A stretch of DNA of 64,000 nt from Clostridia bacterium (GTDB lineage: Bacteria > Bacillota > Clostridia > Peptostreptococcales > Anaerovoracaceae), in the NCBI GenBank assembly GCA_902363595.1, contig CABJAP010000010.1, forward strand, positions 130,490-194,489. The letters are read 5' to 3'. A program made the translations under genes and the position numbers. The notes below the pieces were generated by a model, which saw only the letters and a list, made by a program, of their open reading frames with translations, was not told the origin of the DNA and did no database searches. Positions 13,431 to 56,810 of the stretch are shown one piece after another (the stretch's first letter is position 1; every line of letters begins with the position of its first letter).

Positions 13431-13552
13431 ATTTTTTTCGCAAAGTTGTGGGTTTACGGGGCCTGATTTGGTGAACAGGCAGGGTTTTCGGCTACAAGGT
13501 CGATTCACAAGGCTACAGCCGTTGGAAATTGCGTAAATTTCAAAAATTTTTC
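13431..13552 (+). repeat. Dispersed structured intergenic repeat, copy 1
   Basis: One of four copies in this window. It opens with tttttttcgcaaag, has the constant core ttgtgggttt, a variable hairpin region, and closes with gttggaaattgcgtaaattt. The ends pair as TTTCGC/GCGTAAA. It lies between the converging Nim-type gene and ahcY and fills most of the 316-base gap 13348-13664. The remainder of that gap holds only the ahcY terminator. Confidence 0.7.
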
Positions 13553-13613
13553 CTTATATTTTCCCTCAACTGCTCTTCCACTAAGAAACAGCTGCGCCCA
13601 CCAAGCGCACCAC

Positions 13614-13654
13614 ACAAAAAAGGCAGCGTACCGCCACCAGTCCGCTGCCTTTTT
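13614..13654 (-). terminator. Rho-independent terminator after ahcY
   Basis: Stem ggcagcg (13622-13628) / cgctgcc (13643-13649) with A-runs and T-runs on both sides. On the minus strand it directly follows the ahcY stop at 13665. Confidence 0.85.
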
Positions 13655-13664
13655 CAATTGTTTG

Positions 13665-14915
13665 TCAAACCTGCCAGCTGTTGAGATACTGCTCCTGCTG
13701 AGGAGTCAGGGCATCGATTTCAATCCCCCAGCATTCTAACTTTCTTCTGGCAATTTTATCGTCGATTTCTGCCGATACATCGATCACTTTCTTTTCCAGA
13801 TTGGAATGGTTTTCTTTGATGTACATGGCGGAAAGCGCCTGCACCGCAAAGCTCAGATCCATGATTTCCGCCGGATGCCCGTCCGCGGCGGCGATGTTGA
13901 CCAGCTTTCCCTCTGCTATGACATTAATCCACTTCCCGCTGTTAAGTCGGTAGCCCATAATGTTTTTGCGGGTTTCCTCTTTGTCAAAAGCGGCTTTCTC
14001 CAGGCCCTCCATGTCGATCTCCACGTTAAAGTGTCCGGCGTTGGCCAGGATCGCCCGATCCTTCATCTTCCTCATATGGTCCACCGTGATCGTATGCTTG
14101 CATCCGGTGGCGGTCACAAAAAGATCCCCCAGCGGAGCTGCCTGATCCATCTTCATCACATCGAATCCATCCATTCTGGCTTCAATGGCTTTGACCGGAT
14201 CGATCTCGGTGATAATCACCTTTGCCCCCAGCGCCGAAGCCCGCATGGCGATTCCCCTGCTGCACCAGCCATAGCCTACGACGACCACCGTTTTGCTGGC
14301 AACAATCAGGTTGGTATTGCGCATAATGCTGTCCCATACAGACTGGCCTGTGCCGTAGCGGTTGTCAAAAAGGTGCTTGCACTGGGCGTCGTTGACAGCA
14401 ACCATGGGGAACTTGAGAATACCTTCTCTTTCCATGGCCTGCAGACGAATGACGCCGGTCGTCGTTTCTTCGCAGCCTCCCCAGACCTCTTTTGCCAGAT
14501 CCGGCCGCTTGTTGTGGAGCAGCCCCACCAGATCCCCGCCGTCATCGATGATAATATTGGGTTTCTGCTCCAGGCACATTTCGATATGCCGCCCGTATTC
14601 CTGGTCCGTGGCTCCGTGATATGCGTAGACCTTCAGGCCTGAATCCACCAGAGCCGCGGCCACATCATCCTGGGTGGACAGCGAATTGCTGCCGGTTATG
14701 GACATCTGGGCGCCGCCGGCGGCAAGTACCAGACATAAATAAGCGGTCTTGGCTTCCAAGTGGACCGACAAGCTAATTTTTACGCCGTCAAAGGGCTTTG
14801 TTTTACGAAATTCTTCCTCCAGCCCGGACAGCAGCGGCATATTGTTTCTCACCCACTCGATTTTCTGATGACCCGATGGAGCCAGGGTGATATCTCTTAT
14901 CTGATTGTTTTCCAT
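13665..14915 (-). CDS. ahcY: Adenosylhomocysteinase
   Basis: This 416-residue cytosolic enzyme hydrolyses S-adenosylhomocysteine to adenosine and homocysteine, recycling the by-product of methyl transfer. Family marks are GVKISLSVHLEAKTAYL near 45-60, the NAD site VVVGYGWCSRGIAMRA near 215, and the closing LDVSAEIDD-like and YLNSW segments. Length and the lack of the roughly 40-residue insertion match the short type of many Firmicutes and Archaea. The start at ATG 14915 follows GGAG and is four bases past the glmS stop, so it is the last gene of the cdaA-cdaR-glmM-glmS transcript. There is no obvious functional tie to cell-wall precursors. Confidence 0.95.
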   Translation of the reverse strand: MENNQIRDITLAPSGHQKIEWVRNNMPLLSGLEEEFRKTKPFDGVKISLSVHLEAKTAYLCLVLAAGGAQMSITGSNSLSTQDDVAAALVDSGLKVYAYHGATDQEYGRHIEMCLEQKPNIIIDDGGDLVGLLHNKRPDLAKEVWGGCEETTTGVIRLQAMEREGILKFPMVAVNDAQCKHLFDNRYGTGQSVWDSIMRNTNLIVASKTVVVVGYGWCSRGIAMRASALGAKVIITEIDPVKAIEARMDGFDVMKMDQAAPLGDLFVTATGCKHTITVDHMRKMKDRAILANAGHFNVEIDMEGLEKAAFDKEETRKNIMGYRLNSGKWINVIAEGKLVNIAAADGHPAEIMDLSFAVQALSAMYIKENHSNLEKKVIDVSAEIDDKIARRKLECWGIEIDALTPQQEQYLNSWQV

Positions 14916-14919
14916 ACGA

Positions 14920-16752: not shown

Positions 16753-16764
16753 ACCTGTTACCTC

Positions 16765-20990: not shown

Positions 20991-21197
20991 AAGAAAAAGA
21001 GCGCAGTCTGTGCCGGCTGCTCAGCTGACCTGGTCTTTGCCCCCACACTTGCCTTTACCTGACTTTGTCAGAGGACTTACTTCTAAGCTACGCCATGATC
21101 ACTGCCGCCTTGCGGATCAGCTTACGTGGGACCTTTTGCCCGTAGCTGGCATGGCCTTTCAACCACAGGCCTGAGCAACCGGCGCAAACTGCGCCTT
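20991..21197 (-). ncRNA. Probable raiA-motif noncoding RNA
   Basis: The gap between comF and hpf is closed by a long stem. On the minus strand the sequence from 21195 to 21171 pairs with that from 21024 to 21000 over about 24 bp with one clear mismatch, and the right arm runs into TCTTTTTCTT, a terminator. The roughly 145 bases inside are GC-rich with further hairpins, for example tgatc/gatca at 21093-21121. Position, strand, length near 200 and terminator match the raiA RNA motif, known from Firmicutes and Actinobacteria beside raiA/hpf. Reading frames through it show no protein-like composition. No clear promoter was found upstream of it. The family call rests on context and overall fold, not on a covariance-model score. 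Confidence 0.65.
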
Positions 21198-42894: not shown

Positions 42895-42923
42895 ATTATA
42901 GTATAAGATGCGAGCTGCGTCGA
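42895..42923 (-). promoter_or_regulatory. Likely promoter of the second GGDEF/EAL gene
   Basis: Minus-strand TCGACG (42918-42923), 17 bases, TATAAT (42895-42900), about 50 bases before the start. The -35 lies inside the dyad agatgc/gcatct. A second copy of the whole box lies 79 bases upstream. Confidence 0.45.
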
Positions 42924-43056: not shown

Positions 43057-43174
43057 TGGTATCATTAAAGAGCCATTTTATCTCATATTCAGATATTTAG
43101 TATGTGGTCAGGTCGCATGCTGGGGGGCGGGAGGAGGAGACGGAGAGAAGTGGAAGCGGAAAAAAGCAAAAAAA

Positions 43175-43318
43175 CATTTTAAAAATTACCCACTTTCAAC
43201 GATTGAGCCCTCTTAAATTGATTTTTAAGAAGCCAAACCCGCTTTTCCTGGTGTGGCCCCGAAATGAAACCCCGCAAACCCACAACTTTGCGTAAATATC
43301 GCAAAAACTTTTTAAAAT
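43175..43318 (-). repeat. Dispersed structured intergenic repeat, copy 2 (inverted orientation)
   Basis: Read on the minus strand: tttacgcaaagttgtgggtt, then tgcggggtttcatttc, a variable middle, and gggctcaatcgttgaaagtg near the end. The first hairpin is CGCAAA/TTTGCG, where copies 3 and 4 have CACAAA/TTTGTG. Confidence 0.75.
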
Positions 43319-43523
43319 TTTCCGGATACTGGACTCATCGGATGCCAGGTCCACTTGCGTGAGATAGTATCAGTATTTAGAAAAAACATCTTCATGACTG
43401 ATATTTTGCAGCGGGTCATTTGGAAAAAATATCGCAAGCGAAACATCGTGCTGCCATTGTTCTTTGCGGGTTCTTGGCGCTAAGGGAGCAGACTTTCTTC
43501 TGTCACTGGTCTAGGTATCACAA

Positions 43524-43567
43524 ACATCGCCGGAAAGAGGGCATCCTCTTTCCGGCGATGTTTCATT
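43524..43567. terminator. Strong hairpin after yfiH
   Basis: aaacatcgccggaaagagg pairs with cctctttccggcgatgttt (about 19 bp) around a four-base loop. The T-tract on the minus strand is short (TTTG), so it may act as a terminator or an RNA-stabilising hairpin. Confidence 0.6.
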
Positions 43568-43617
43568 ATCCATCAGCTAATTAATCTGCGTCATAACCAG
43601 GCACGCTTTCCCTGGTT

Positions 43618-44331
43618 CTACAGCAAACACAGACCCGCGCCCATTCTGCGATAAGTCCCGCCTTCTCTCCGATAGGAGCAGAACAAGTCCGGCCCGCAGC
43701 AAGTACAATGGCTGCTGGCAGTAATATGCTTCTTTTGAATACCCGCATCCTCCAGCTGCCTGCGGTTGATACCTTTCAGATCCAGATAGTTCTTCTCACC
43801 GCATGGTCTGGCAAAATCCCCTGCGAACTTCCAGCGGCGCTGGAATTCTTCCAAAACCTCGGGTCCTGTTTCAAAACAGCAGCTGCTGATGCCCGGGCCG
43901 ATATGAACAAGGATATCCTCCGGTTTACTGCCAAAATGTTCTCCCATTTTTCTTGCTGCTTTAGGAGCAATTCCGGCGGCTGTTCCCCGCCAACCCGCAT
44001 GTACCAGACCGATTGCCTTTTTGACAGGATCGCACAGATACACAGGCAGGCAGTCTGCGTGAACAGTTGTCAATAAAACGCCCGGCACATCGGTGATCAA
44101 CCCGTCAGTATCAGCGATGCGAACCGGGGCATCTTCACGCTTTTCAATGACAACGATATGATCCTTGTGTACCTGGGCTGGCCAGATGGGCTGCGCCAGA
44201 TCCAGGCCAAGCTGGCAAAAGACATCCGGCCGGTCATAGGGACTGCCTTCACTGGCGCCGTACTTTGTTGAAAAAAATCCTTTTACTATGGGAAGCTCTT
44301 CAAATACTTCCAAATATAATTTTTGTTCCAT
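43618..44331 (-). CDS. pgeF: Laccase-domain purine nucleoside phosphorylase / peptidoglycan editing factor (YfiH)
   Basis: The 237-residue protein is of the YfiH/DUF152 family. Zinc-ligand and active-site motifs are present: TVHADCLPVYL (His, Cys near 95-100) and GLVHAGWRGTAAGI (His near 116), then HIGPGISSCCFE and HCTCCGPDLFCSYRREG. Family members act on purine nucleosides, and in E. coli PgeF removes wrongly incorporated residues from peptidoglycan precursors. It is monocistronic, flanked on both sides by inverted copies of the dispersed repeat. Confidence 0.92.
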   Translation of the reverse strand: MEQKLYLEVFEELPIVKGFFSTKYGASEGSPYDRPDVFCQLGLDLAQPIWPAQVHKDHIVVIEKREDAPVRIADTDGLITDVPGVLLTTVHADCLPVYLCDPVKKAIGLVHAGWRGTAAGIAPKAARKMGEHFGSKPEDILVHIGPGISSCCFETGPEVLEEFQRRWKFAGDFARPCGEKNYLDLKGINRRQLEDAGIQKKHITASSHCTCCGPDLFCSYRREGGTYRRMGAGLCLL

Positions 44332-44390
44332 GGTTTTATTATATCATTTTTGCAGCAGCAAAAATCCGGTAAATTTTAAAAAACCGGAGA

Positions 44391-44520
44391 CATTTTTACA
44401 CAAAGATGTGGGTTTGTGAGGCTTCATTTGGGAGAAAAGAGCGACAAGCCTCAGAAATGTCAGTTCAAGCCTGTATAAGCTGGCTCAATCGTTGAAAAAA
44501 GGGTAAATTTTGAAAGAAAC
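44391..44520 (+). repeat. Dispersed structured intergenic repeat, copy 3
   Basis: tttttacacaaagatgtggg then tttgtgaggcttcatttg, a 7-bp hairpin GAGGCTT/AAGCCTC, and tggctcaatcgttgaaaaaa followed by gggtaaatttt. It fills the middle of the 316-base gap 44332-44647, which otherwise holds only a GC-rich hairpin at 44589-44611. Confidence 0.8.
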
Positions 44521-44588
44521 ATTTATTTTTTTCCCGAAACATGTCGTCCAGCATCCTAGGCCCGCTTTCGCAGCTGCACCGATCCTTT

Positions 44589-44611
44589 GCCCGGGGACCA
44601 AGGCCCCGGGC
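44589..44611. terminator. GC-rich hairpin after the FprA gene
   Basis: gcccggggaccaaggccccgggc forms a stem of eight to nine GC-rich pairs 37 bases past the FprA stop. No T-tract follows, so termination is uncertain. Confidence 0.4.
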
Positions 44612-44647
44612 AGAAGAGCGGCATTTGCCTGGCTGGATCAATCAGGA

Positions 44648-45850
44648 TCAATCATTCATAGACTCGATCAGTCCATCCACCAGCTGATCCATCTCTATGG
44701 CGCTGCCTTCATTTAAAGAGGAGAGGACGGATACCTTTTCATTGAGCACGGTCATCTGCTTCATCTCATCGAGGAACTCTTCCATGAGAGCGCCGGACTT
44801 GGGTGCCCAGGACCCGTTTTCAATCAGTGCTACTGTGCGTTTCTGCATATTCAGCGCCTTCATATCCATGAGATAATTCAGCATCGGAGGATAAATCCCC
44901 AGATTATATGTGACCGAGGCCAGAACAATGTGACTCAGCCGGAAGGTCTCTGAAATCAGTTCTGAAACATGGGTTTTGGAAACATCGTACATCGCCACAT
45001 TGGTCACGCCCCGGACTGCCAGCTTGGTTGCCAGCGCATTGACTGCGCTTTCCGTATTGCCGTACATGGATGCGTATACGATCAGCACACCCTGTTCTTC
45101 CGGCTCATAGCTGCTCCATTTATCATACTTATCCAGGAAATACCCCAGATCGCTGCGCCATACCGGGCCATGGAGGGGGCAAATCATTTTAATATCAATG
45201 GTTGCCGCCTTTTTCAGCAGGGCCTGCACATGAGGGCCGTATTTGCCTACGATATTGGTATAATACCTTCTCGCATCGTCGATCCAATCCCGGTCAAAGT
45301 TGACTTCATCGTTGAAGAGCTTTCCGTCGAGGGAACCAAAGGAGCCGAAGGCATCCGCTGCAAACAGGACGCCGTTTGTCAGATCAAAGGTTACCATGGC
45401 TTCCGGCCAGTGGACCATGGGCGCGGCCACAAAGGTGACTTCATGCTTACCGAAGGAACGTGTATCCCCTTCCTGCACCTCTTCCATATGGCCGTCAACA
45501 TCAAAGTTGAACTGATGCATCATCATAAAGGCTTTTTCCGTACTAATGATCTTCACATCCGGGTAGCGGATCAGCACTTCTTCGATGGATGCTCCGTGAT
45601 CCGGCTCCATGTGGTTAATCACCAAATAATCCAGCTGACGTCCGTCAAGGACATACTCGATATTCTCTAAAAACTGCCGTCCCGCGGACCAGTCCACGGT
45701 ATCGAAGAGCACAGTCTTTTCATCCAGCAGGAGGTAGGAATTATAGGAAACGCCCCGCGGGATGGGATGAATATTTTCAAAGAGTGTCAGGCGGCGGTCA
45801 TTCCCACCGACCCAATACAAATCTTCTGTTACTTTTCTTACGCAATACAT
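44648..45850 (-). CDS. fprA: FprA-type flavodiiron protein (oxygen/NO reductase)
   Basis: This 400-residue soluble protein has an N-terminal metallo-beta-lactamase-like di-iron domain (about 1-250). It keeps the ligand set HMEPDHG (His80, Glu82, Asp84, His85), VHWPEAM and PLHGPVW. The C-terminal flavodoxin domain (about 255-400) has VYASMYGNTESAVNAL for FMN. The family reduces O2 to water or NO to N2O with electrons from rubredoxin. The gene follows, by 11 bases, a protein that ends in a rubredoxin domain, so the electron donor is probably encoded in the same operon. Confidence 0.95.
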   Translation of the reverse strand: MYCVRKVTEDLYWVGGNDRRLTLFENIHPIPRGVSYNSYLLLDEKTVLFDTVDWSAGRQFLENIEYVLDGRQLDYLVINHMEPDHGASIEEVLIRYPDVKIISTEKAFMMMHQFNFDVDGHMEEVQEGDTRSFGKHEVTFVAAPMVHWPEAMVTFDLTNGVLFAADAFGSFGSLDGKLFNDEVNFDRDWIDDARRYYTNIVGKYGPHVQALLKKAATIDIKMICPLHGPVWRSDLGYFLDKYDKWSSYEPEEQGVLIVYASMYGNTESAVNALATKLAVRGVTNVAMYDVSKTHVSELISETFRLSHIVLASVTYNLGIYPPMLNYLMDMKALNMQKRTVALIENGSWAPKSGALMEEFLDEMKQMTVLNEKVSVLSSLNEGSAIEMDQLVDGLIESMND

Positions 45851-45861
45851 GGTTATCCTCC

Positions 45862-47766
45862 TTATCCTTCTATGAATTTATCCTTTTCTTCTCCGCAGTC
45901 CGGGCAAATCCATTCTTCCGGAAGAGCGTCGAATAAAGTACCTGGAGAAACATCGGCCTCCGGATCGCCCACAGCTGGATCGTATTCGTATCCGCAGCCG
46001 GAGCATACATAAGTTTTCCATGGAGGCGCTTCCTTCTTTGGAGTCGCTTTTCTCATCTTCTGCATTGGCGGCGCTGGTTTTTTCGGTTCTCCGTTATCCA
46101 GCGCTTTTGTCAGCAACGGCAGAATTTCCATCAAATCTCCTACAATACCGTAATCGGCATTTTTGAAGATGGGCGCGTTTTTATTCTTATTGATGGCTAC
46201 AATGGTGGTTGCTCCCTTGATCCCTTTCAAATGCTGGCCGGCGCCTGAAATTCCGCAGGCTATGTACAGATTTCCGTTGAATTTCTGCCCGGACATTCCC
46301 ACATAACGATTGAGAGGAACATATTTCAAAGTCTCAGCCACTGGTCTGGATGAACCCACAGCCGCACCAGCCTGAAGGGCCAGCTCTTCGATGAGCTTCA
46401 TATTCTTTTTATCTCCGATGCCCTTTCCGGCGCTGACAACACGATCCGCTTCAATAATCGGCGTGTTGGGGTCAATGCCCACCGTGAAATCATAGCCGTC
46501 TGCCTTAAGGGCTTCCACAAGAGCCGCCACTTTTTCTTCGCTGGATCCTTCCAGGAAGAGCTTTTTCTTGCGTGCTCCGGTGATGGGTCCCTTCGCCTTC
46601 AGCTTGCCGCCGGCCTGTTTTGGCGGTTTACCGATAATATGAGAAGCGATAACAACTCTCTGAATTTCGTTAGTGCCTTCATAAATGGTACAAATTTTCG
46701 CATCCCGGTATGCCCGTTCCACTTCCATGCCTTTCAAGTAGCCGTTTCCGCCGAAAATCTGAACCGCATCGTTGACCACTTCCAGGCAGATATCGGAAGC
46801 GTATTGCTTGGCCATGGCGGATTCCATACCGTAAGGTTCATGATGCTCCTTCAGTTCTGCGGAGCTGTAAATCAGAAATCTTGCGGCCCTCAGCTTGGTC
46901 GCCATGTCTGCGATTTTGAAGGAATTGATTTGGTGGTGAGCAATTGGAATGCCGAACTGCTCCCTTTCCTTGGCGTATTCTACCGCATGTTCGAATGCTC
47001 CCTGAGCGATTCCCAGCGCCTGGGAAGCGATTCCGATCCGCCCGCCGTCCAGGGTTGCCATGGCGATTTTGAAGCCCTGGCCTTCCTTGCCCAGCAGATT
47101 TTCTTTGGGAACCTTGACGTCGTTGAAAATCAGTTCAGCGGTAGCCGATGAGCGGATTCCCATCTTGTCGTAATGGTCGCCGAATTCAAAGCCTTCCCAG
47201 CCTTTTTCCACAATAAAGGCACTGATTCCTCTGGTGCCAATATTAGGCGTGGTCACTGCGAAAATCACGTAAGTATCCGCTTTTTCGGCGTTGGTGATAA
47301 AAATCTTTCCGCCGTTGAGGATATAGTGGTCGCCAACCAGCTCGGCCGTGGTTTCTGTGCCGCCGGCATCGCTTCCAGCATTGGGCTCTGTCAGGCCGAA
47401 GGCTCCCAGCTTTTCTCCTTTTGCCAGCGGAACCAGATATTTTTTCTTCTGCTCCTCTGTACCAAAGGCATAGATGGGATAAGATCCCAGCGAAACGTGG
47501 GCCGAAAGAATAACGCCCGTACCGCCGTCAACCCTCGCCAGTTCCTCCACCGCAATGGCATACGTCAGAATATCCAAACCGGCTCCTCCGTATTTTTTCG
47601 GATATGGAATTCCCAGCATATTCATTTCCGCCAGTTTCTTTACGATTTCATCCGGAAATTCGTTTTTTTGATCCAGCATAAAGGCAATCGGCTTTAGCTC
47701 CGTTTCTGCGAATTCTCTGATCTTCGCGCGAAATTCCTCATGCTGATCGGTTGTTTTGAATAACAT
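45862..47766 (-). CDS. Acyl-CoA dehydrogenase / ETF-alpha FAD domain / rubredoxin fusion
   Basis: This 634-residue three-part protein starts at the second of two ATGs (47766), five bases after GGAGG. Residues 1-380 are a complete acyl-CoA dehydrogenase ([17 protein letters not shown]; catalytic-type Glu in [10 protein letters not shown]). Residues about 405-555 match the FAD-binding C-terminal domain of ETF-alpha ([51 protein letters not shown]). Residues about 583-634 are rubredoxin with [10 protein letters not shown] and CPDCGEEKD. The chain suggests electron flow acyl-CoA to FAD, to ETF FAD, to Fe(Cys)4, and on to the adjacent FprA. ETF-beta is not encoded nearby. The physiological substrate is unknown. 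Confidence 0.93.
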
Positions 47767-47814
47767 CATTACCTCCCCTTTCACGATATATCTTCCATGT
47801 TTTTACTGAATTTT

Positions 47815-47833
47815 TAGAATTTATTATATTCTA
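47815..47833. promoter_or_regulatory. Palindrome in the divergent ACAD-fusion / Crp-type intergenic region
   Basis: TAGAAT-N7-ATTCTA is a perfect 6-bp dyad overlapping a minus-strand TATAAT. A half-site-like tgtgatatatgcaaca at 47855-47870 resembles Crp/Fnr boxes. Either could bind the divergent regulator. Confidence 0.4.
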
Positions 47834-47925
47834 ACCTGTTTTTGGAACTTATTCTGTGATATATGCAACAAAGTGGGTAAATATTATTAAGAACGGATAC
47901 TAATTTTCGAGAAAGGAAGGTTTTC

Positions 47926-48561
47926 ATGAAACGATATTTTATCAGCGATGGGATTGCTGAGGATTCCATAAAAAAGATGCTCCGCTGTTTTCGGCCCCAG
48001 TTGAAACGATTTCAAAGCGGCGAAACGATCATGCGTTATTCGGACCGTGTGGAAAAGATCGGTCTTGTGATGAAAGGAACGGCGGTTCTCCATGTTCTGG
48101 ATGCGGACGGAAATGCCGGGCTTTTGGAAACGTACGAAGAGCAGGCTCTCTTTGGCGAGCTGTTTCATCTGCCTTTGGACGGGTTTGAATACCTTGTGGA
48201 AGCTAAGACAGACAGCCGGGTCTTGTTCATCGACTATACCCACATCGTTACGCCCTGTGAAAAGACTTGCGCCCACCATTCCCAGCTGATCAACAATCTT
48301 TTCCTAATGGCAGCGCAGCGAGCTCAGGCGTTGTCGCTCCATCTGAATATTCTTCATCAGCCTACGATCCGCAAAAAGCTGCTCACCTATCTGACCTGCC
48401 TGCGGGGAACGGCGGAAAGCGATTCTATTACCATTCCGTTAACCTTGTCGGCTCTGGCGGAATATCTCTGCGTGGACCGCAGTGCCATGACCCGGGAGAT
48501 TCGGCTGATGAATGAGGAGGGGATTTTGCAGTCCAACAGGAGAACCTTTCAATTGTTGTAA
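47926..48561 (+). CDS. Crp/Fnr-family transcriptional regulator
   Basis: The 211-residue protein has an N-terminal cyclic-nucleotide-binding-like barrel (about 20-125; FQSGETIMRYSDRVEKIGLVMKG) and a C-terminal winged helix (about 150-211) with LTLSALAEYLCVDRSAMTREIR as the helix-turn-helix. It lacks an N-terminal Fnr cysteine cluster, so direct Fe-S oxygen sensing is unlikely; a small-molecule or heme ligand is possible. It is divergent from the acyl-CoA dehydrogenase fusion-FprA operon, the likely target. Start ATG follows AGGAAGG. Confidence 0.9.
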   Translation: MKRYFISDGIAEDSIKKMLRCFRPQLKRFQSGETIMRYSDRVEKIGLVMKGTAVLHVLDADGNAGLLETYEEQALFGELFHLPLDGFEYLVEAKTDSRVLFIDYTHIVTPCEKTCAHHSQLINNLFLMAAQRAQALSLHLNILHQPTIRKKLLTYLTCLRGTAESDSITIPLTLSALAEYLCVDRSAMTREIRLMNEEGILQSNRRTFQLL

Positions 48562-48596
48562 AGCAGGATATGAACGCCGGTGCCCGATGCAGCATG

Positions 48597-48647
48597 CAAA
48601 AAACGCCAAGGTACTTCGATCGCTGCGAAAGCTCCCTGGCGTTTTAT
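48597..48647. terminator. Bidirectional terminator between crp-type and trxA
   Basis: aaaacgcca...tggcgtttt stem with A and T runs, between convergent genes. Confidence 0.7.
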
Positions 48648-48654
48648 CTTTTCT

Positions 48655-48963
48655 TCATTTGAGCATGGCTTTTACTTTGCCCTTGGACTGAACGCCCACG
48701 GATGTACCTACGATCTTTCCGTTCTGGAAAAGGGCCAGTGTGGGAATGCTCATGATCCCGAATTGAGCGGCCAGCTGAGGCTGTTCGTCAATGTTGACTT
48801 TCCCGATCCTGGCTTTCGGCTCGTCAGCCGCCACCGCGTCCAAAATAGGCGACATCATCTTGCATGGCCCGCACCATGGAGCCCAAAAATCCACCAGCAC
48901 CGGTTCCTGTGAATTTACAACTTCCTGATTAAAGTTATCCTGTGTTAATTTTATAATAGCCAT
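48655..48963 (-). CDS. trxA: Thioredoxin
   Basis: The 102-residue protein starts at ATG 48963 after GGAGG; the longer frame starts in non-conserved sequence. The active site FWAPWCGPC has Cys31 and Cys34, followed by MSPILDAVA and the cis-Pro IMSIPTLALF. It is a cytosolic disulfide reductase. No thioredoxin reductase is in the window. Confidence 0.96.
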   Translation of the reverse strand: MAIIKLTQDNFNQEVVNSQEPVLVDFWAPWCGPCKMMSPILDAVAADEPKARIGKVNIDEQPQLAAQFGIMSIPTLALFQNGKIVGTSVGVQSKGKVKAMLK

Positions 48964-49120
48964 TTTTAAATACCTCCTTTGACTTTGTGGCTTAACTATA
49001 CCACCATCCAAACAAATCTTCTGTGACCAGGTTACATATATGCTTTTTTTTTCTTTCCCAGAAAAATTTCGGTTGCCAGCGGCAGCTTTGATGTATTATT
49101 CTAGTAGGCAAGGAGGGTTT

Positions 49121-50029
49121 ATGAAAAAATTTAAAGGAGAATTATGTTTGATGCTGGCGGCCCTGATCTGGGGGTCAGCGTTTATATTTCAAAAGATGGG
49201 AATGGATCATGTGGGCCCGTTCACATTCGGATTCTTTCGCTTCACCTTGGGAGCGCTGGCGCTGCTTCCCGTGATTTTTATCTACGGCAAGCTGAACCAA
49301 AAGCGTTCTGCGCCCAAGGAAATCACGCCGTTTAAAAACCGCATGCTCCTGCTGGGAGGCTTGCAGTGCGGGATCGCCAGTTTTATTGCCGGTTCCCTGC
49401 AGCAGATCGGCATCATGTATACCACAGCCGGAAAGGCGGGATTCATCACTTCGCTGGATATTGTCATCGTTCCCATCCTGCTCTTATTTCTCAGGCGAAG
49501 GGTTGGAATTTTCACTTGGCTGGGAGTTGCCCTGGCCGGATTCGGACTTTACCTGCTCTGCATCACGGACGGGTTTACCATCCAGCTTGGCGACGGACTG
49601 GTAATCGCCTGCGCGGTGGGTTATTCCTTCCAGATTCTGCTCATCGACTATTATTCCGACAAGGTGGATGCAATCAAGCTTTCGTTTTTACAGTTTTTGC
49701 TTTCCGGCCTTTTATCGGGTGTTTTCATGATTTTTCTGGAATCCGTGGCTTTTCAGGATATCATCGACTGCGCGGTCCCCATTTTATACACGGCAATTCT
49801 AGAAGTGAGCATTGCTTTTACCCTTCAGATCGTCGGACAGAAGGATACTCCCCCTGCCATCGCTGCCATCATCATGAGCCTGGAAGCGTTTTTCTCCGCA
49901 GTATGCGGCGCTCTGTTCCTTGGAGAAGTGATGTCATCGCGGGAAATGATCGGATGCGTTCTGATGCTGACTGCCTTTATCATATCGCAGATTCCTGACA
50001 AACGGATTTCACGTCAAGACCACGCTTAG
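49121..50029 (+). CDS. DMT/EamA-family transporter
   Basis: The 302-residue membrane protein starts at ATG 49121 after AAGGAGG. It has ten predicted helices in two EamA repeats, the first beginning LMLAALIWGSAFIFQKMG and the second GDGLVIACAVGYSFQILLI. Members export amino acids or metabolites. No substrate can be named. Its end overlaps the convergent PAP2 gene by four bases. Confidence 0.92.
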   Translation: MKKFKGELCLMLAALIWGSAFIFQKMGMDHVGPFTFGFFRFTLGALALLPVIFIYGKLNQKRSAPKEITPFKNRMLLLGGLQCGIASFIAGSLQQIGIMYTTAGKAGFITSLDIVIVPILLLFLRRRVGIFTWLGVALAGFGLYLLCITDGFTIQLGDGLVIACAVGYSFQILLIDYYSDKVDAIKLSFLQFLLSGLLSGVFMIFLESVAFQDIIDCAVPILYTAILEVSIAFTLQIVGQKDTPPAIAAIIMSLEAFFSAVCGALFLGEVMSSREMIGCVLMLTAFIISQIPDKRISRQDHA

Positions 50030-50523
50030 GGAATCCAATAAAACCCCACCAGCCCGGACAGAATTCCCAAAGCCGCCCCGGCAATCACATCTTTGGGGAA
50101 ATGCACACCGCCCAGCACCCGCACAACGGCCATAAAGATTCCCGCCGCGCCGATCAATACCCCGGCAAGAGGCATTTTCCAGAAAAAGGTCATTCCGATG
50201 ATAAAGATGGAAAAGACGTGGCGGCTGGGAAAGGATTTTCCCCTGGTGTCTTTGGGGATCACCGGAGGCAGGTCGAAGACTTCATAGGGCCTGGGCGCAC
50301 AGTACAAATATCGAAAAACGCTGATAACGACAAAAGAGATACCCGGCACCAAAACAGCCCTCGCAAGCCCAGTATCTTTTTGCAGATACAGCGCTGCCAG
50401 CAAAACGGGATAGGCAATATATGCGATTTTCGTCAAAATGGAATCGATAAGGATGATCGCCTTTTGCCTCTTAGGATTGCCGCGAAAGCTTTCGGTCATT
50501 TTCAGATACGTCTCTTTGGTCAT
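50026..50523 (-). CDS. PAP2-family membrane phosphatase
   Basis: The 165-residue protein starts at ATG 50523 with GGAGG nine bases upstream. It has four to five membrane helices and the acid-phosphatase motifs RPYEVFD, KSFPSRH (near 104) and RVLGGVHFPKDV (His/Asp near 145). It probably dephosphorylates phosphatidate or undecaprenyl-pyrophosphate. It is 16 bases downstream of the helicase gene. Confidence 0.88.
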   Translation of the reverse strand: MTKETYLKMTESFRGNPKRQKAIILIDSILTKIAYIAYPVLLAALYLQKDTGLARAVLVPGISFVVISVFRYLYCAPRPYEVFDLPPVIPKDTRGKSFPSRHVFSIFIIGMTFFWKMPLAGVLIGAAGIFMAVVRVLGGVHFPKDVIAGAALGILSGLVGFYWIP

Positions 50524-50539
50524 GGTGGACTGCCTCCTG

Positions 50540-53500
50540 CTACAATTTTCTAAAATACTCAATCAAAATATCTTTCATATAATGATATCTTCTGGCATAA
50601 GAATTCTCAACCCGGATCAGCTCAAAATCGTACCTCTGGCAAAGCTCCGCCTTTTTCTGATCCCGAAGGCGGACCGCTTCCTCTTCAATATGCTCTTTTC
50701 CGTCCAGTTCAATGGCCAGCACCGGCATTTCTTTTGTGCTGCGGACGCGCTGATAGACGACAAAGTCAAAGCGGCCGGTGTAAAAAAGGTCGTTGTGTTC
50801 CTCGCTGCCATCGAACACATGGGAGATGGGCACCTCTTTGTGAATCGTATATTTGCTGCCTGCCACCAGGATATTGCCCAATGCGTGGTTGAGGGTGGTC
50901 AGGAAAGCGGCTTCTGTTTCCGTGCTGTAAGGTTTGATGCCCAGCGCTCTGGTGGCTGCTGCTTTGGGCGTAACTTCCGAAGCGCCGTTGGTGCGGATAT
51001 ACTCCACCAGCTCGTACAAATCGTCCTCTTCATCCGTGCCGTGAAGGCGGCGCAGGTTCTGACTGCTGGACAACAGCACCAGCTTTTCCTTGGCCCTGGA
51101 GGTGGCCACATTGATCAGCTCCTTATTGTTTTTCAGCCAGCTGTAGGTCTTTGCATGGGTCTGATCGGTCACTGCCAGGGAAAAGAGAATGACATCCTTT
51201 TCATCCCCCTGGAAAGCGTGGACCGTGCCGCACTGCACATCGAGAATACCGTTATCCAAAAGCACGCTGTTGATGTATTCTTTTTGGCTGACAAAGGGGG
51301 TAATGACGCCGATTTTTTTGTCCCGGTTTTGAAGGATATAGTTCAGGATCTGGGCCGCTTCCGCAGGAGCCGTGTTCTTTTCCTCTGTCGATCCGTCGGC
51401 AAGATCCACATAGACCAGCGGCTGGGGTTCGCAAACCTGGCTGCGGATCTTCAGCTTGTCGTTGTAATATTTTTTATTGTTAAAATCGATGATCTTGCGA
51501 TGGCAGCGGTAATGATAGCTGAGCAAAATCTCATCGCTCACCGAGTCGCAGGCCAGATACGTCTTATAAATGGAATTCTCAATATAATCGTACTCCTGGC
51601 TCACCTGGTATTTGGCCTTCAAGGTCTGGTTCGCCTTGGGATCCAGCAGAATCACCGGGCTCAGCTGCTGGGGATCGCCCACCAGCATCAAATTGCTGCC
51701 GCGGATGATGGGTACCAGAGAAACCGCCGAATTGCACTGGCTGGCTTCATCCATCATCACCATATCAAAATAGGGCTTGGGCTCGCCCAGCCGGTGGGCG
51801 GAAATACATGTCGTAATCACGACAGGAAAGATGCGAAGAAATTTCTTCATGTTCTCTTCCTGGCTTAGATGGCGGTTAAATTCTTTGACCTGCTCCTCCT
51901 TGCGCCCCTCCATAAAGAGAATGGACAGCAGCTCTTCATTCTTGGGTTCGTCCAGCCGTTTGATATATTTTGCCGATATATAATAGAGATATTTTAAAAA
52001 TTCTTCAACGTTTTGATTCAGCAGCGGCAGAGCATCCGCTTCATCCACTTCTCCGATCTGCTCCAGCTGTTTCTCCACTGCCGCAAGCTGCCGGCTCTGC
52101 AGCTCGACCCGGAAGGTCAGACTCTGTTCGCTGCGGATCAGGCTTTCAATCGACGCTTTCCGTTCCTTCAGATCGAGAATGGACTCATATCGTTTGAGCA
52201 GCTGGGAGAGCTGCTCTGTCTTTTCGATTTTGTCATCCTTGTTCCGCTCCAGGGTATTGGAAAAAACATTGATTTCTTTCACTTGCAGATACAATGCCTT
52301 CATGTAGTCCAGGGCTTCTTCCACCTTTTCCCGGTTTCCCAGCCGCACGGCCGGAAAGGGGACGCGTTTGTTCCGATAGCGGATATTCTGCAAGGTATGA
52401 AATACGCTGTCAATGGGATGATTATTATAGGATGCAAAAAGCACCGTCTTTTCGTTGAAAAAAGCAGTGGTGATGGTGTTGATAATCGTGCTTGTTTTTC
52501 CGGTTCCAGGGGGCCCCTGAATGTAGGAAAGGGGATATTTTAAGCCGTGATGGATGGCCAGAAGCTGATCCAGGTTCACCTGCTGGTTGAGCAGCGCCAG
52601 GGGATATTGTTTTGTCCGCACCGGCTGTTTTACCAGTTCTCCGAAAAATGCTTTTATGGGAATGGTGGGTTTTGCTTCCTGGTACATTTCCAGGATTGCG
52701 CCGTATTCCTGATCCAGATCCAAAGCCAGGTCCCGGGAAAGGGTCAGAAGATAGGGCATATCGTCCACGCCCTTGATCTGCGGATTGGCGCTGGTAATCC
52801 GGTCTTTGATTTCTTCCTGATTGGTATCGAAATCGTCCAGCAAATATCCGTATTCTTCCGGAAGAAAGCGGCGGATGCTTTGCTTTTCACCGTCAATGGT
52901 AAATTCCCGGCAAATGGTCGCTTCCTCTTCTGCGATCAGCCTGCGGCGGATCACGTCAAAATTCATCTTGCGGTACGCCAGCACGTAAAGGCCCTTTCTG
53001 ACGGGCACACTTAGCAGGTTCATGCAGATTTGCAGGATCCGTTTTCTGGGCTTTTTCTGCTGCCTGTCGCGGATGGTTCTGCGCTGGAACTGGTTGATAA
53101 TATCCTTGTACTGCTGGTCACTTAGCTGGTAAACTCCTTCCTGCACCCCTTCACCGTCCAGGCCTTCTACCAATGCGTATTCGCTGCGGTAAGGGGTGGA
53201 GTCCAGGCGGCTGCAGTCGGCCAGATAATTGAGGATTTTCATGTTGGCCGCATGGTGAAACAGTTCTTTGTATTTGGCCGGATTGAGATGAATATCCTCC
53301 ACCAGCCTCTGGTTCACCGGGTGAAAGGAGCCTTCCACCACATCGGAGGTGAGAATTGAGTCAATGTAAATCCTGGGAAAATCACCCAGGGTATGTTTGG
53401 ATAGATGGAGTCCGGCCACGCTAAGGGACCGGTCCTTGAGGTTGATGTCGTTGATTCCGATCCAGTACCGGGTCTGTTCTCCATTTTTATTCTTGTATTC

Positions 53501-53560
53501 GATGCTGATCCACTTGCCTTCGTGGATGGCTTTAAAAATATCCCGGCAAACCGTATTCAT
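50540..53560 (-). CDS. WYL-like + SF1 helicase + DUF2726 nuclease-like protein
   Basis: The 1006-residue protein starts at ATG 53560 after CAGGAGG. Residues 1-85 look like a WYL-type SH3-like domain (IFKAIHEGKWISIEYKNKNG, FPRIYIDSIL). The middle is a UPF1/DNA2-like SF1 helicase: Walker A QGPPGTGKTSTI (near 351), a coiled inserted region (about 430-530), Walker B VMMDEASQCN (near 605), GDPQQLSPV and TVHAFQGDEKDVIL. The end (about 890-1006) is DUF2726, a PD-(D/E)XK-like fold (FVVYQRV, LAIELDGKEH, RYDFELIRVEN). Related COG1112-type proteins act in nucleic-acid processing and some in phage defence. The role here is unknown. Confidence 0.88.
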   Translation of the reverse strand: MNTVCRDIFKAIHEGKWISIEYKNKNGEQTRYWIGINDINLKDRSLSVAGLHLSKHTLGDFPRIYIDSILTSDVVEGSFHPVNQRLVEDIHLNPAKYKELFHHAANMKILNYLADCSRLDSTPYRSEYALVEGLDGEGVQEGVYQLSDQQYKDIINQFQRRTIRDRQQKKPRKRILQICMNLLSVPVRKGLYVLAYRKMNFDVIRRRLIAEEEATICREFTIDGEKQSIRRFLPEEYGYLLDDFDTNQEEIKDRITSANPQIKGVDDMPYLLTLSRDLALDLDQEYGAILEMYQEAKPTIPIKAFFGELVKQPVRTKQYPLALLNQQVNLDQLLAIHHGLKYPLSYIQGPPGTGKTSTIINTITTAFFNEKTVLFASYNNHPIDSVFHTLQNIRYRNKRVPFPAVRLGNREKVEEALDYMKALYLQVKEINVFSNTLERNKDDKIEKTEQLSQLLKRYESILDLKERKASIESLIRSEQSLTFRVELQSRQLAAVEKQLEQIGEVDEADALPLLNQNVEEFLKYLYYISAKYIKRLDEPKNEELLSILFMEGRKEEQVKEFNRHLSQEENMKKFLRIFPVVITTCISAHRLGEPKPYFDMVMMDEASQCNSAVSLVPIIRGSNLMLVGDPQQLSPVILLDPKANQTLKAKYQVSQEYDYIENSIYKTYLACDSVSDEILLSYHYRCHRKIIDFNNKKYYNDKLKIRSQVCEPQPLVYVDLADGSTEEKNTAPAEAAQILNYILQNRDKKIGVITPFVSQKEYINSVLLDNGILDVQCGTVHAFQGDEKDVILFSLAVTDQTHAKTYSWLKNNKELINVATSRAKEKLVLLSSSQNLRRLHGTDEEDDLYELVEYIRTNGASEVTPKAAATRALGIKPYSTETEAAFLTTLNHALGNILVAGSKYTIHKEVPISHVFDGSEEHNDLFYTGRFDFVVYQRVRSTKEMPVLAIELDGKEHIEEEAVRLRDQKKAELCQRYDFELIRVENSYARRYHYMKDILIEYFRKL

Positions 53561-53584
53561 GAAAAGCCTCCTGAGCTGCTGGAC

Positions 53585-54403
53585 TTACTGGTCCTTAACC
53601 CGTTTCAGATACGCTCCGATATCCAGCCCCATCCCCATTCTATCTATCATTCGAAAGGTCCCCGCCTGTCTTTCTCCTTGTTTGTCCACTCCAACAAGCT
53701 GGGCTTCGACAAAGACAGTTCCGTACTTGCTCCTTTTCTTATCATCTATAGAGTAGCCTACGGTACAGGATTCACCTTTTTCCAGATGAATGGGATCCTG
53801 GAAGTCGATTTCATCGTAAGGAATATCGTTGATTTCCAGCGATGTGATGACTTGGAATAGTTCCTTCTCATAAGGGATTTCAATTCCTGTGATGTCTATC
53901 GGTCTTTTCGCTTCAAAGGCCATCTCCCCATAATTTTCATCATCCTGTGTATAATCCGGTTCTTCTCTGGTGGTAACAAATCCTTTTTCCTTCAAGCTGC
54001 ATATTTTGACATGCCCCACGTCAGCGGTGGAGGTGCTGCCGTCATCCCAGGTGATTTCTAAATGGTCAAACTCCAGCGGCACCGCCATGCTGGAATCCTC
54101 GTTCAGCTTGCTAGTGCCTACGCCCCAGCTGATGGTATGAAGCCAATACCCGCTTTCCTCCTCATTTTGCTGGTCGTAGATGTCGATGGAGATGTCCGGC
54201 GGCGCATCGGGAATTTCAAGGTTTTTTACCTTTTTGTCCCAGGTCTCATCGGTGATGTACTGGGTATCAACATCCATATCTTCTGAAGAAATAAGTGCCT
54301 TAACAAAAACCGGTTCTTCCAGCTTGGGGCCGCACCCGGTCATTATTGCCGCTGCAAGCACAAGCAGGCATACGGCCGAAAAAACGATCCTTTTCTTTTT
54401 CAT
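53585..54403 (-). CDS. Lipoprotein of unknown function, paralogue A
   Basis: The 272-residue protein starts at ATG 54403 after AAGGAG. It has a lipoprotein signal peptide with lipobox MTGCG (Cys24), then EEPVFVKALISSEDMDVDTQYI. A beta-rich body with HLEITWDDGSTSTADVGH follows. It shares this framework with the protein at 55489-56307 (VVVKSLISSDDMDV, ITWDDGSKTTADVG), about 35-40 percent identical by eye. No family recognised. The two paralogues flank an alcohol dehydrogenase gene on the same strand. Confidence 0.85.
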   Translation of the reverse strand: MKKKRIVFSAVCLLVLAAAIMTGCGPKLEEPVFVKALISSEDMDVDTQYITDETWDKKVKNLEIPDAPPDISIDIYDQQNEEESGYWLHTISWGVGTSKLNEDSSMAVPLEFDHLEITWDDGSTSTADVGHVKICSLKEKGFVTTREEPDYTQDDENYGEMAFEAKRPIDITGIEIPYEKELFQVITSLEINDIPYDEIDFQDPIHLEKGESCTVGYSIDDKKRSKYGTVFVEAQLVGVDKQGERQAGTFRMIDRMGMGLDIGAYLKRVKDQ

Positions 54404-54433
54404 ATATTCTCCTTTTGGCCTTACCGCCAATTT

Positions 54434-55474
54434 CTAAATCTCGACTGCGATTTTCATAACGCCCGCTTCTCTGTTTTCGAACAGGTCATAAGCGCTGAGG
54501 ATTTCCTCTAGGGCAAAGGTATGGGTGATCAAGCCTGCAGTATCCAGCCTGCCCTCCTCAATGAGCTGCAGCAGCCGTTCACAATGGGCCGCATGGACGC
54601 CTCCCGTCTTGAAGGTTAAATTTTTTCCATACATCTGGGGCAGCGGCAGCCGCTGGTCCTCTTCGTACATGGCGACCAGGCACACAATTCCCGATGGGCG
54701 GGCCAGCTGCCAGGCCAGGTCAAAGGTTCCATCGCCGCCTGCGGCTTCGATTACTCGGTCCGCTCCTCTGCCGCCCGTTTTTTCCATGACCAGTGTTTTT
54801 AAATCCTGCCTGCTGCAATCCACCACCTGCGCTGAAATTCCCAGTTTTCTTCCAAACTCTGTCCGCTCTTCATCGATATCTGCTAAAATCAGATGTTTCG
54901 GCTCATACAAGGAAGCGCACATAGCTGTGCACAGACCCGTAGGGCCGGCACCCAAAATGACTACGGTGTCATTTTTTGTTATCTCTGCCAAATCCGCCGC
55001 CCAATATCCGGTGGAGAGAATATCGCCCACAAAAAGCGCCTGCCGGTCCGTGATTGATTGGGGAATCCGGTTGAGTCCGTTGTCCGCATAAGGTACGCGC
55101 ACATACTCCGCCTGCCCGCCGTCAATGCGGCAGCCCAGGGCCCAGCCGCCGTTCTCATCTGCGCAGTTATTGACCAGCCCCTGCTTGCAGTAAAAGCATT
55201 CCCCGCAGAAGGTCTCCACGTTGATGGTTACCCGGTCCCCCGGTTTGACGTTATGAACCTGCTCTCCCGTTTCCTCGACAATGCCCACCATCTCATGTCC
55301 CAAAACGATGCCGGGGATCGCCTTGGGTACTGCTCCGTGTTTGATGTGCAGATCGCTGGAACAGATCGATGCCAGAGTTACGCGTATAATGGCATCCGTA
55401 GGGAGCTGTAAACTCGGGCGAGGCCGCTCTTCCAACGCCAGCCGATGATTCTTCTTATAAACGAGCGCTTTCAT
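54434..55474 (-). CDS. Zinc-dependent medium-chain alcohol dehydrogenase
   Basis: The 346-residue protein starts at ATG 55474 after GAAGGAGG. Catalytic zinc residues are in SICSSDLHIKHG and GHEMVGIVEETG. The structural-zinc lobe is degenerate but cysteine-rich (CGECFYCKQGLVNNC). The Rossmann motif is VILGAGPTGLCTAM. It resembles threonine/sorbitol-type or formaldehyde-type dehydrogenases; the substrate is unknown. It lies between two paralogous lipoprotein genes with 14-30 base gaps, so all three should be on one transcript. Confidence 0.92.
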   Translation of the reverse strand: MKALVYKKNHRLALEERPRPSLQLPTDAIIRVTLASICSSDLHIKHGAVPKAIPGIVLGHEMVGIVEETGEQVHNVKPGDRVTINVETFCGECFYCKQGLVNNCADENGGWALGCRIDGGQAEYVRVPYADNGLNRIPQSITDRQALFVGDILSTGYWAADLAEITKNDTVVILGAGPTGLCTAMCASLYEPKHLILADIDEERTEFGRKLGISAQVVDCSRQDLKTLVMEKTGGRGADRVIEAAGGDGTFDLAWQLARPSGIVCLVAMYEEDQRLPLPQMYGKNLTFKTGGVHAAHCERLLQLIEEGRLDTAGLITHTFALEEILSAYDLFENREAGVMKIAVEI

Positions 55475-55488
55475 TTCAACCTCCTTCT

Positions 55489-56307
55489 TCACTCTTTCCG
55501 GGCTTGTTTTAGGTATTCCGGTATATTTTTCTCGATCTTAGTATCAGGAGAAATCACAAACACAGCCTCTTGTTTCTTTCCCTGACCATCCTCCCCCATC
55601 AGCCGCATATTGATCCAAATGCGGCCGTACAAGGTCTGAAATTTGTCATTATAACGGCAATGCACCTTAAATGTCCCTCCCTTTTTCAATTCAATCGGGT
55701 GTTGTTCATCTATTTCAGACACCGGTACATCATTGACTGTCAAGCTGGATACCATCTTTTCTACTTCTTCTTGATAGGGGATTTCAATTTGGGTAATTTT
55801 CATGTTCCGCGGCGCCTGAAAGGTTTGCGAGTCGTCGATCCGTTTATCTTTTTTATAGTTGCTGTTTGCCTCCTGGGCCTCTAGCATGTCCCGGGCTCCG
55901 CTTTGGATTTGAATGCTGCCCACATCAGCTGTGGTCTTGCTGCCATCATCCCAGGTGATGTTCAGCTTGTTGAAGGAGATCGGCTCTGTCAGTCCCCCCT
56001 CTTCCGTAAGGTTGTCGCTGTTTACCCCCAAGTGTGCGGTGTGGAGGGAGTATCCGCTCAGAATCTCGGAATCCTCATCATAGACAACCGTTTCGATATC
56101 TTTGGGTGCGTCGGGAATCTCTACGGATTTTATCCTTTTGCCACCCACCATACCGGAAATATACATAATGTCCACATCCATGTCATCTGATGAAATGAGA
56201 CTTTTCACCACCACCGGCTCTTTCATGTAGATGCTGCATCCGCAGAGCAATGTGATCAATAGTATGCTGGTCATGATGCCCAGCATGATCTTAATACGTT
56301 TTTTCAT
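55489..56307 (-). CDS. Lipoprotein of unknown function, paralogue B
   Basis: The 272-residue protein has a signal peptide ending in lipobox LLCGC (Cys25), then MKEPVVVKSLISSDDMDVDIMY. Its domain plan is the same as the protein at 53585-54403. Start ATG follows GGAGGAGCCT. It is probably the first gene of the lipoprotein-dehydrogenase-lipoprotein transcript. Confidence 0.85.
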   Translation of the reverse strand: MKKRIKIMLGIMTSILLITLLCGCSIYMKEPVVVKSLISSDDMDVDIMYISGMVGGKRIKSVEIPDAPKDIETVVYDEDSEILSGYSLHTAHLGVNSDNLTEEGGLTEPISFNKLNITWDDGSKTTADVGSIQIQSGARDMLEAQEANSNYKKDKRIDDSQTFQAPRNMKITQIEIPYQEEVEKMVSSLTVNDVPVSEIDEQHPIELKKGGTFKVHCRYNDKFQTLYGRIWINMRLMGEDGQGKKQEAVFVISPDTKIEKNIPEYLKQARKE

Positions 56308-56464
56308 AGGCTCCTCCTTTTTTCGGCGGCTCTGGCGCTGCCGGATTTACACAATACAGTCTTCTTTTACCAGTATAGCATTGGAGGCTGCTGATTTGAA
56401 GGGAGGATTGGGGAAAAGTTGATTTGGATTGGGCTGGTGGCGAGTATGTGCATGGGCCCCGGCG

Positions 56465-56521
56465 GGCTGCCACGCGTGCCGGGGAGGTGAGGCATCAGAG
56501 GCAGGCTGCCCCGCGTGCTGG
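56465..56521 (+). repeat. Direct repeat, two 18-bp units 39 bp apart
   Basis: ggctgccacgcgtgccgg (56465-56482) and ggctgccccgcgtgctgg (56504-56521), with two mismatches. They are in the 583-base gap 56308-56891. Confidence 0.6.
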
Positions 56522-56544
56522 AGCATATTTCATTTATTTTGCCG

Positions 56545-56611
56545 ATTTCTATTCGAAATGGGCGAATTTATATGGACATTGGTTTCAAATTGCGGTGTTT
56601 CGAATAGAAAT
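56545..56611. repeat. 14-bp perfect inverted repeat
   Basis: atttctattcgaaa (56545-56558) and tttcgaatagaaat (56598-56611), with a 39-base spacer. It could be an operator pair or a cruciform site; no protein is known to me for it. Confidence 0.7.
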
Positions 56612-56691
56612 TGAGAAATTTTTTATATTTTGCTGGCCGGAAGCAAAAAACGTGAGCCGCAGTGCTGAGGAAAAAACTCAAAAAAATTAAA

Positions 56692-56810
56692 TGTTTTTAC
56701 ACAAAGCTGTGGGTTTGTGGGGCCTCATTACGAAAAAGCTGAAGCCTGGCCGCCGACCCGCCGATCTCAGATGGCTCAGGCATTAAAAAAAGTGTAAATT
56801 TCAAAAGAAA
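56692..56810 (+). repeat. Dispersed structured intergenic repeat, copy 4
   Basis: tgtttttacacaaagctgtg, the core tgtgggtttgtggggcctca, and the end ggctcaggcattaaaaaaag tgtaaatttc. Outer ends TTTACAC/GTGTAAA and the inner hairpin CACAAA/TTTGTG both form. A tail hairpin GTGTAA/TTACAC with TTTTTT (56790-56823) may act as the terminator in the rest of the gap. Confidence 0.8.

Follow-up and report, generated by a model that had tools for sequence, protein, structure and literature searches.

Among the described systems closest to the repeats studied here, bcr1 of the Bacillus cereus group is a structured intergenic repeat of roughly 155 bp with a 5-bp target duplication, and attC sites have a layout of four arms, with a centre shorter than in the sites presented below. 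We analysed a stretch of 64,000 bp from a Clostridia bacterium of the Anaerovoracaceae (contig CABJAP010000010.1), hereafter called the window, which contains four copies of a repeat unit of comparable kind. REPINs and REPs depend on RAYT (TnpA-REP) transposases for their mobilisation. REPINs are short, intergenic palindromic doublets with a typical spacing of 71 or 110 bp (PMC3116915), and GTAG or CGTC tags are known beside REP palindromes (PMC3733652). Bacterial miniature inverted-repeat transposable elements (MITEs) of about 100-200 bp, such as ERIC, Correia/NEMIS, RUP and RU-2, are mainly intergenic, with terminal inverted repeats and no protein (PMC2229807). The units of the window are probably non-autonomous, REPIN/MITE-like mobile DNA repeats of an unusual two-site architecture, a reading to which we assign a probability of about 0.7. 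Their mobility is supported by the presence of more than 100 sharp-ended units in a relative, by the occurrence of units in some other genomes of the family, by differences between loci of the window and of this relative (the Anaerovorax odorimutans SL.3.17 genome, which contains locus L006 and is called G001 below), and by direct repeats of 15-36 bp.

Exact matches to CAAAGNTGTGGGTTT are found at 13441 (+), 43290 (-), 44401 (+) and 56702 (+), with zero other mismatch-free sites within the 64-kb window, where simple arithmetic gives a chance expectation of about 0.0005. A profile made from G001 only recovers the same four places (E values of 8.4e-12, 1.2e-10, 1.4e-9 and 1.5e-9) and no others at E values up to 10. 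The original prediction, that four copies with a common core lie between genes, is thus borne out as to places; its boundaries are revised by the outer ends GG(A/T)AAA...TTTTCC, which define full units at 13408-13564, 43158-43323, 44368-44534 and 56669-56825, of 157, 166, 167 and 157 bp for copies 1 to 4. The common 3' end motif that it had pointed out is also present in all four: copies 2 and 3 carry it as CGTTGAAA, copy 1 has CGTTGGAA and copy 4 the diverged form CATTAAAA.

Anaerovorax odorimutans is placed by NCBI in the Anaerovoracaceae, Peptostreptococcales. Among 148 genomes of an order sample, G001 has the AhcY protein closest to that of the window, at 90% identity, followed by 82% for the next genome. 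The window and G001 are collinear, with gaps, over 2.4-43 kb (G001 contig C108) and 48.6-63 kb (contig C227) of the window. The core is matched 93 times in G001 (69 exact and 24 one-mismatch matches) versus 3 times for a reversed control, and 5 times versus 3 in a second genome of the genus, which is the control level. In 60 G001 stretches (1,167,074 b), the profile finds 108 matches, including 78 full ones with a mean pairwise identity of 75%; 76 of these 78 begin with GGTAAC, 74 end with GTTACC and 76 measure 156-160 bp. Truncated and degenerate copies also occur, so that the earlier view of the repeats as something other than decay is only partly right. Two covariance models were used, R1, made from 26 copies, and R2, a second model. 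With R2, 76 G001 stretches (1,349,441 b) yield 135 units, a few being partial; these stretches were picked around known copies, so that density figures are biased.

A longer pattern is matched in 4 of 296 family genomes, 58 times in G001 and once in each of the three others. For the two-ended pattern TGTGGGTTTG-N(52-82)-CGTTGAAA, G001 has 78 matches and the other 392 genomes of an order sample have 0. R1 matches 3 of 296 family genomes (G001, G019 and G184; at a loose limit of 0.1, G019 has 7 matches and G184 has 1), R2 matches 5 of 349 family genomes (G001, G019, G101, G156 and G284, with G184 below the pass level) and, in a class sample, 1 of 391 genomes, namely G001; both of these large R2 searches were run with stricter filters, by which weak matches are lost. 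A pattern scan of GTDB contigs returns 8 loci, of which 7, with 9 matches, belong to A. odorimutans SL.3.17. The eighth, on a sphingomonad contig, is judged by eye to be unrelated, its surroundings being unlike a unit, and three viral pattern matches appear to be phage coding sequence. These results show that the repeat family is real and multicopy, and so far confined to one bacterial family, in agreement with the earlier expectation of further copies in relatives. No description of it was found in our searches of an open-access library for Anaerovorax/Anaerovoracaceae repeats, bcr1, MITEs, REPINs or the motif letters. Since 135 or more units lie in a third of one genome, it constitutes a useful annotation class, for which the models and alignments can be reused.

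Each unit is laid out as site 1, core and site 2. A site consists of an AT-rich centre, in relatives often TATATA, with an arm on either side, and the two arms are usually inverted repeats. In stem P1, as it is called here, the left arm of site 2 is faced by the right arm of site 1. The G001 sites are GGTAACTTTT...AAAGTTACGC (site 1) and GCGTAACTTTT...AAAAGTTACC (site 2); each is itself an inverted repeat, which results in four matching arms with the inner pair as P1. The core is conserved, starting with AAAGNTGTGGGTTTG and ending with CGTTGAAAA, and several different stem sequences close it. G001 units of the A type have the stem GTTACGC/GCGTAAC, eight G001 units (family B) retain TGTGGGTTTGCGGG and AACGTTGAAAAA with the closing stem AGCGGA/TCCGCT, a third G001 stem is found in 7 of the 135 R2 units, and eight units of G019 have three stems (GGGATTA, TGGTTA and GTGACA). 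P1 is wholly different in sequence between sub-families, and the arms within one unit usually match. By eye, fuller sites in G019, G101 and G156 read CGTTGAAAA - arm - AT-rich centre - arm - AAAGNTGTGGG, and their outward flank can be of either type. The unit is a palindrome doublet at a fixed distance, singlets being rare; this holds in G001, and by eye the G019 sites are also paired. L189 of G284 (1501-1601) holds a symmetric relative, which has CGTTGAAAA on either side and lacks the AAAGNTGTGGG core.

In a number of units, the two sites share a direct repeat. Such repeats of at least 15 bp are found in 7 of 16 units of G019, G101, G156 and G284 (36, 29, 24, 21, 18, 15 and 15 bp), these 16 being taken from the 18 units outside G001 and the window, with L156 and L182 excluded, and in 2 of the 6 G001 units tried. 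When site 1 is compared with site 2 of another unit as a control, the mean is 7.4 and only 6 of 634 comparisons reach 15. In L187, L191 and L200 (L223, L224 and L204 in the direct-repeat analysis), the inner arms are mostly unpaired, yet the sites share direct repeats of 36, 29 and 21 bp, and L191 and L200 have hybrid-looking sites. In L181 (5722-5833), a reversed unit lies, by eye, inside a site of normal orientation. The direct repeats and the reversed L181 unit are what would be expected if a unit had inserted into a palindromic site that was already there and this site had been duplicated.

Differences between corresponding loci point in the same direction. The gap beside ahcY that holds copy 1 in the window is filled in G001 by about 1.7 kb of other sequence, without any unit. 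The orthologues that flank a four-unit array of G001 (L067) have, in the window, another gene between them and no unit. Upstream of the G001 orthologue of 55489-56307, near copy 4, a degenerate partial copy is found (E value of 1e-4), from which it follows that some insertions may be old.

The compensatory changes that had been proposed for the outer ends are supported beyond chance. In a 26-copy cross-family alignment, P1 is paired at 83.2%, all 8 pairs vary on both sides, and the covariation is 0.801 versus 0.263 after shuffling (reached in 0 of 500 shuffles), with values of at most 0.207 for slid partners; two counts in the same alignment, that of pairs with changes on both sides and that of pair types, are not above chance, being attained by 292 and 495, respectively, of the 500 shuffles. 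The units of G019, G101, G156, G284 and G184 were found with models containing P1, and their pairing is therefore partly selected. In 18 copies selected without a structure model, a count free of this bias, the covariation is 0.617, with a shuffled mean of 0.258 and maximum of 0.374; it is 0.553 versus 0.207 in 135 G001 units (alignment A7, which is fitted to the structure). When 46 G001 A-type copies are taken by themselves, no helix is prominent, because the stems scarcely vary there, and for 26 A and window copies the RNAalifold covariation term is merely -0.18.

The fate of the first hairpin, CRCAAA/TTTGYG, for which a compensatory change had likewise been claimed, is different. Its covariation is 0.062 versus 0.067 after shuffling, and CGCAAA/TTTGCG is therefore rejected as a conserved helix. 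It is intact in window copies 2-4 and mismatched in copy 1. Of 65 G001 copies whose core is intact, 62 keep the CGC of this hairpin, and the GCG side varies. The two mutually exclusive folds of the original prediction thus rest on one supported helix, the outer stem, and one unsupported helix. By eye, many copies also have a candidate inner helix, P2, in which TTTGCGGG pairs with a partner directly preceding CGTTG.

RNA and paired DNA ends cannot be told apart by the covariation of P1. The units could in principle be structured RNAs, in which P1 and an inner helix would expose a conserved internal loop (AAAGNTGTGGGTTT / AACGTTGAAAA) to a protein or to a second RNA; the copies would then be dispersed RNA genes or parts of untranslated regions (UTRs). 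The covariation of P1 across sub-families and the combination of conserved loop bases with variable stem bases are in agreement with this, as is the folding of two G019 copies and one G001 copy below their shuffles (z of -3.30, -3.95 and -2.14; one G101 copy gives -1.08). The window copies, however, fold in an ordinary to mildly good way (z of -1.19, -2.41, -0.47 and -0.36 for copies 1 to 4) and their reverse strands no worse (-2.41, -1.82, -0.98 and -0.69). The orientation of units relative to neighbouring genes is near random: for 63 G001 units, the strands of the two neighbour genes, taken relative to the unit, are ++ in 19 cases, +- in 17, -- in 16 and -+ in 11. Gene calls were longest-open-reading-frame heuristics, with a minimum of 130 aa, and the count covers the 63 of 78 units with both neighbours within 1.5 kb, the other 15 being dropped. 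A UTR element of fixed orientation would not be expected to give such a pattern. Furthermore, L187, L191 and L200 mostly lose P1 but keep the flanking direct repeat, a stepwise spacing of the kind reported below is more expected of DNA, and no match to any copy was obtained with Rfam at the gathering score over the whole window. A permissive Rfam scan of 43001-57000, which covers copies 2-4 only, gives 3 weak matches, none on a copy; a known Rfam family, which would have spoken against the earlier reading, is thus not found, copy 1 having been scanned at the gathering score only. Altogether, an RNA function appears improbable, and of the two options offered by the original prediction, functional RNA or mobile miniature element, the second is favoured by copy number, ends, locus differences and direct repeats, and the first is weak. 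The sole Rfam match in the window at the gathering score is a raiA RNA (RF03072) at 21016-21179 (-), with 134.4 bits versus the 101.3 required.

The distance between the two sites is distributed in steps. Measured from AAAG to CGTTGAAAA in 21 copies outside G001, it is 77/78 in 11 copies, 87/88 in 9 and 67 in 1, and the values for window copies 1-4 are 77, 87, 87 and 77. These numbers come from 22 measured copies, of which L156, devoid of the 3' motif, was dropped; the spacings of L155 and L191 were set by hand to 88 and 87, since the script had taken a wrong 3' anchor, and the 5' anchors of L181 (both units), L182, L189 and L202 are weak (at most 9 of 15). A simulation in which copies are treated as independent reaches this pattern in 0 of 100,000 runs, a figure that overstates the case because the copies share ancestry. 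G001 has essentially one spacing class, with other end points used (80-82 in 55 A copies, 79-81 in 27 B copies), and the sequence between the motifs shows little conservation across sub-families. Steps of ten, about one DNA turn, without intermediates suggest that both sites must face the same side of the helix.

Such an arrangement could also be that of a DNA-binding array, in which two operator-like palindromes in helical phase are bound by a regulator or nucleoid protein and are spread by general recombination, and not by an enzyme acting on the sites. Palindromic sites, a near-fixed spacing in steps of about ten and an intergenic location would all be expected in that case. A single regulator would not account, however, for arms that differ within one genome (three stem types in G019 and three in G001), and more than 100 units are found, in tandem, convergent and divergent gaps alike (35, 17 and 11, respectively, of the 63 G001 units above). 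We consider this explanation very improbable.

Several results weigh against units being mobile repeats with a two-site architecture. No mobilising enzyme is identified: Y1_Tnp/RAYT (PF01797) has 0 matches in G001, the one genome tested, the same search being positive in 5 of 14 control genomes. No short target duplication is seen at 54 non-redundant G001 flanks (best z of 2.4 over 1100 combinations of offset and length); these flanks are non-random, with a weak consensus GGGCTGC / GGAAC, so that the unit ends may be misplaced by a few bases. A solo site is what excision would leave, and none is found in 1.35 Mb of G001, the 3 pattern matches lying at two truncated copies. A search for clean empty sites by joined flanks gives 5 matches, of which the three examined are mosaics of other repeats and two are inside L118. 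In the window copies, the longest direct repeats between site 1 and site 2 measure 6-10 bp and 0 of 4 reach 15, so that the window itself gives no sign of duplication. As for the spacing, its classes do not represent 21 independent events, copies within a genome being related, the sole value of 67 (L189) has a poor 5' anchor (7/15 letters), and one of the 135 G001 matches is 121 long versus mostly 109-112, i.e., ten longer. Two 405-aa open reading frames (ORFs) over copies were considered as transposase candidates and rejected by eye, one because it looks like a genuine protein that is extended spuriously, the other because its frame is judged spurious.

Alternatively, the units could be relics that have outlived a lost mobilising element and are decaying and immobile. 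No larger element with the same exact ends is seen in 1.35 Mb of G001, where diverged ends would escape the search. The end matches in this sequence (88 for site 1 and 66 for site 2) are away from an R2 unit in 3 and 1 cases only, which are truncated or contig-end copies; G001 places with an end match and without a listed core match, picked by eye, contain four full copies, one truncated copy and one cut by a contig end. The truncated copies and the mean identity of 75% are also in agreement with decay. On the other hand, some units of G019 and G101 have flanking direct repeats (21-36 bp) that are almost identical and look recent, and the core stays conserved while the arms change. Relics are therefore, in our opinion, unlikely, though to be taken seriously.

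If the units are mobile DNA repeats, a recombinase or transposase acting in trans might read both sites together, and the two sites would have to be held on one face of the helix, hence the spacings of 77/78 and 87/88. The unit could insert into a pre-existing palindromic site, in either orientation, and the target site, or part of it, would end up on both sides of the unit. Site-specific integration or a long target duplication are candidates for the chemistry of this step. For multicopy intergenic repeats, the usual explanation is a transposase with conserved ends as its target; in the present units, the arms close to the ends vary and the inside is constant. Should mobility be confirmed, the enzyme would be one that recognises a layout and a pairing instead of one end sequence. 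One more speculative possibility, which we regard as a long shot, is that the units represent a new class of element with replaceable specificity arms, matched solely by pairing with a target or partner site, and a constant core read by a shared machine that needs helical phase. If true, this would be a modular insertion system, perhaps guided by pairing, that belongs to none of the known families of transposases and integrons.

In the window, all four copies are intergenic. Copy 1 (+), with ends GGAAAA...TTTTCC, sits between two convergent genes, a pyridoxamine-oxidase-like gene and ahcY. Its P1 5' arm, TTTTTCGC (13434-13441), is the right arm of site 1 and is followed by the conserved 5' core CAAAGTTGTGGGTTT (13441-13455), then by the conserved 3' core CGTTGGAA (13520-13527) and the P1 3' arm GCGTAAAT (13531-13538), the left arm of site 2. 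Copies 2 (-) and 3 (+), both of the +10 spacing class, flank pgeF, one on each side and in opposite orientations (43158-44534). The 5' core of copy 2 is at 43276-43290 and its 3' core CGTTGAAA at 43194-43201; copy 3 has its 5' core at 44401-44415, its 3' core CGTTGAAA at 44490-44497, and P1 arms TTTTACAC (44394-44401) and GGGTAAAT (44501-44508), the latter mismatched to the 5' arm. In copy 4 (+), the P1 5' arm TTTTACAC (56695-56702) and the 5' core (56702-56716) are followed by the diverged 3' core CATTAAAA (56781-56788) and the P1 3' arm GTGTAAAT (56792-56799). The neighbours of copy 4 are a gene without Pfam match on one side and, on the other, an adjoining pair at 56892-58383 (-), an MT-A70 methyltransferase beside a BglII-type restriction endonuclease.

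Other features were seen around the units. In the window, a tandem pair of 79-bp repeats, 78% identical, covers the start of a GGDEF/EAL gene (42889-43046), and a single ORF at 45862-47784 (-) combines acyl-CoA dehydrogenase, an electron-transfer flavoprotein (ETF)-alpha FAD domain and rubredoxin, and adjoins a flavodiiron-like protein that has a flavodoxin domain. Intergenic DNA in G001 has a mosaic make-up that includes other repeats; two dispersed ones, TTGTTGAA...TTCAACAACG and TTGCGACCAA...TTGGTCGCA, lie beside units at several loci each (L067, L075, L079 and others). Tandem arrays of three or four units are present in L068, L067 and L075, with periods of about 444, 519-527 and 588-595 bp, which take in flanking repeat DNA.

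When compared with known systems, the units resemble the description of bcr1 by their size and as structured intergenic repeats, bcr1 differing by its 5-bp target duplication. Like attC sites or pairs of tyrosine-recombinase att sites, they have four arms and flanking direct repeats; unlike attC, they are without a cassette ORF, have a longer centre and, in the G001 stretches, have no solo site. With REPINs they share conserved ends, a less conserved spacer, compensatory changes and the doublet as the unit (PMC3116915). However, their two sites are direct copies of a palindrome, and not an inverted pair of single REPs, their conserved inner core can be combined with different arms, neither a GTAG nor a CGTC tag is seen by eye beside their palindromes, which are flanked by AAAGNTGTGGG and CGTTGAAAA, and G001 is without a Y1 transposase in the PF01797 search. 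Because of this missing match and of the lacking tags, we do not class them as REPINs. Their terminal inverted repeats, length below 200 bp, multicopy and mainly intergenic nature and absence of protein are those of MITEs (PMC2229807). They differ from MITEs by the absence of a short target duplication at the 54 G001 flanks, and by an inner core that is conserved across sub-families with differing ends, within a two-site layout of stepwise spacing.

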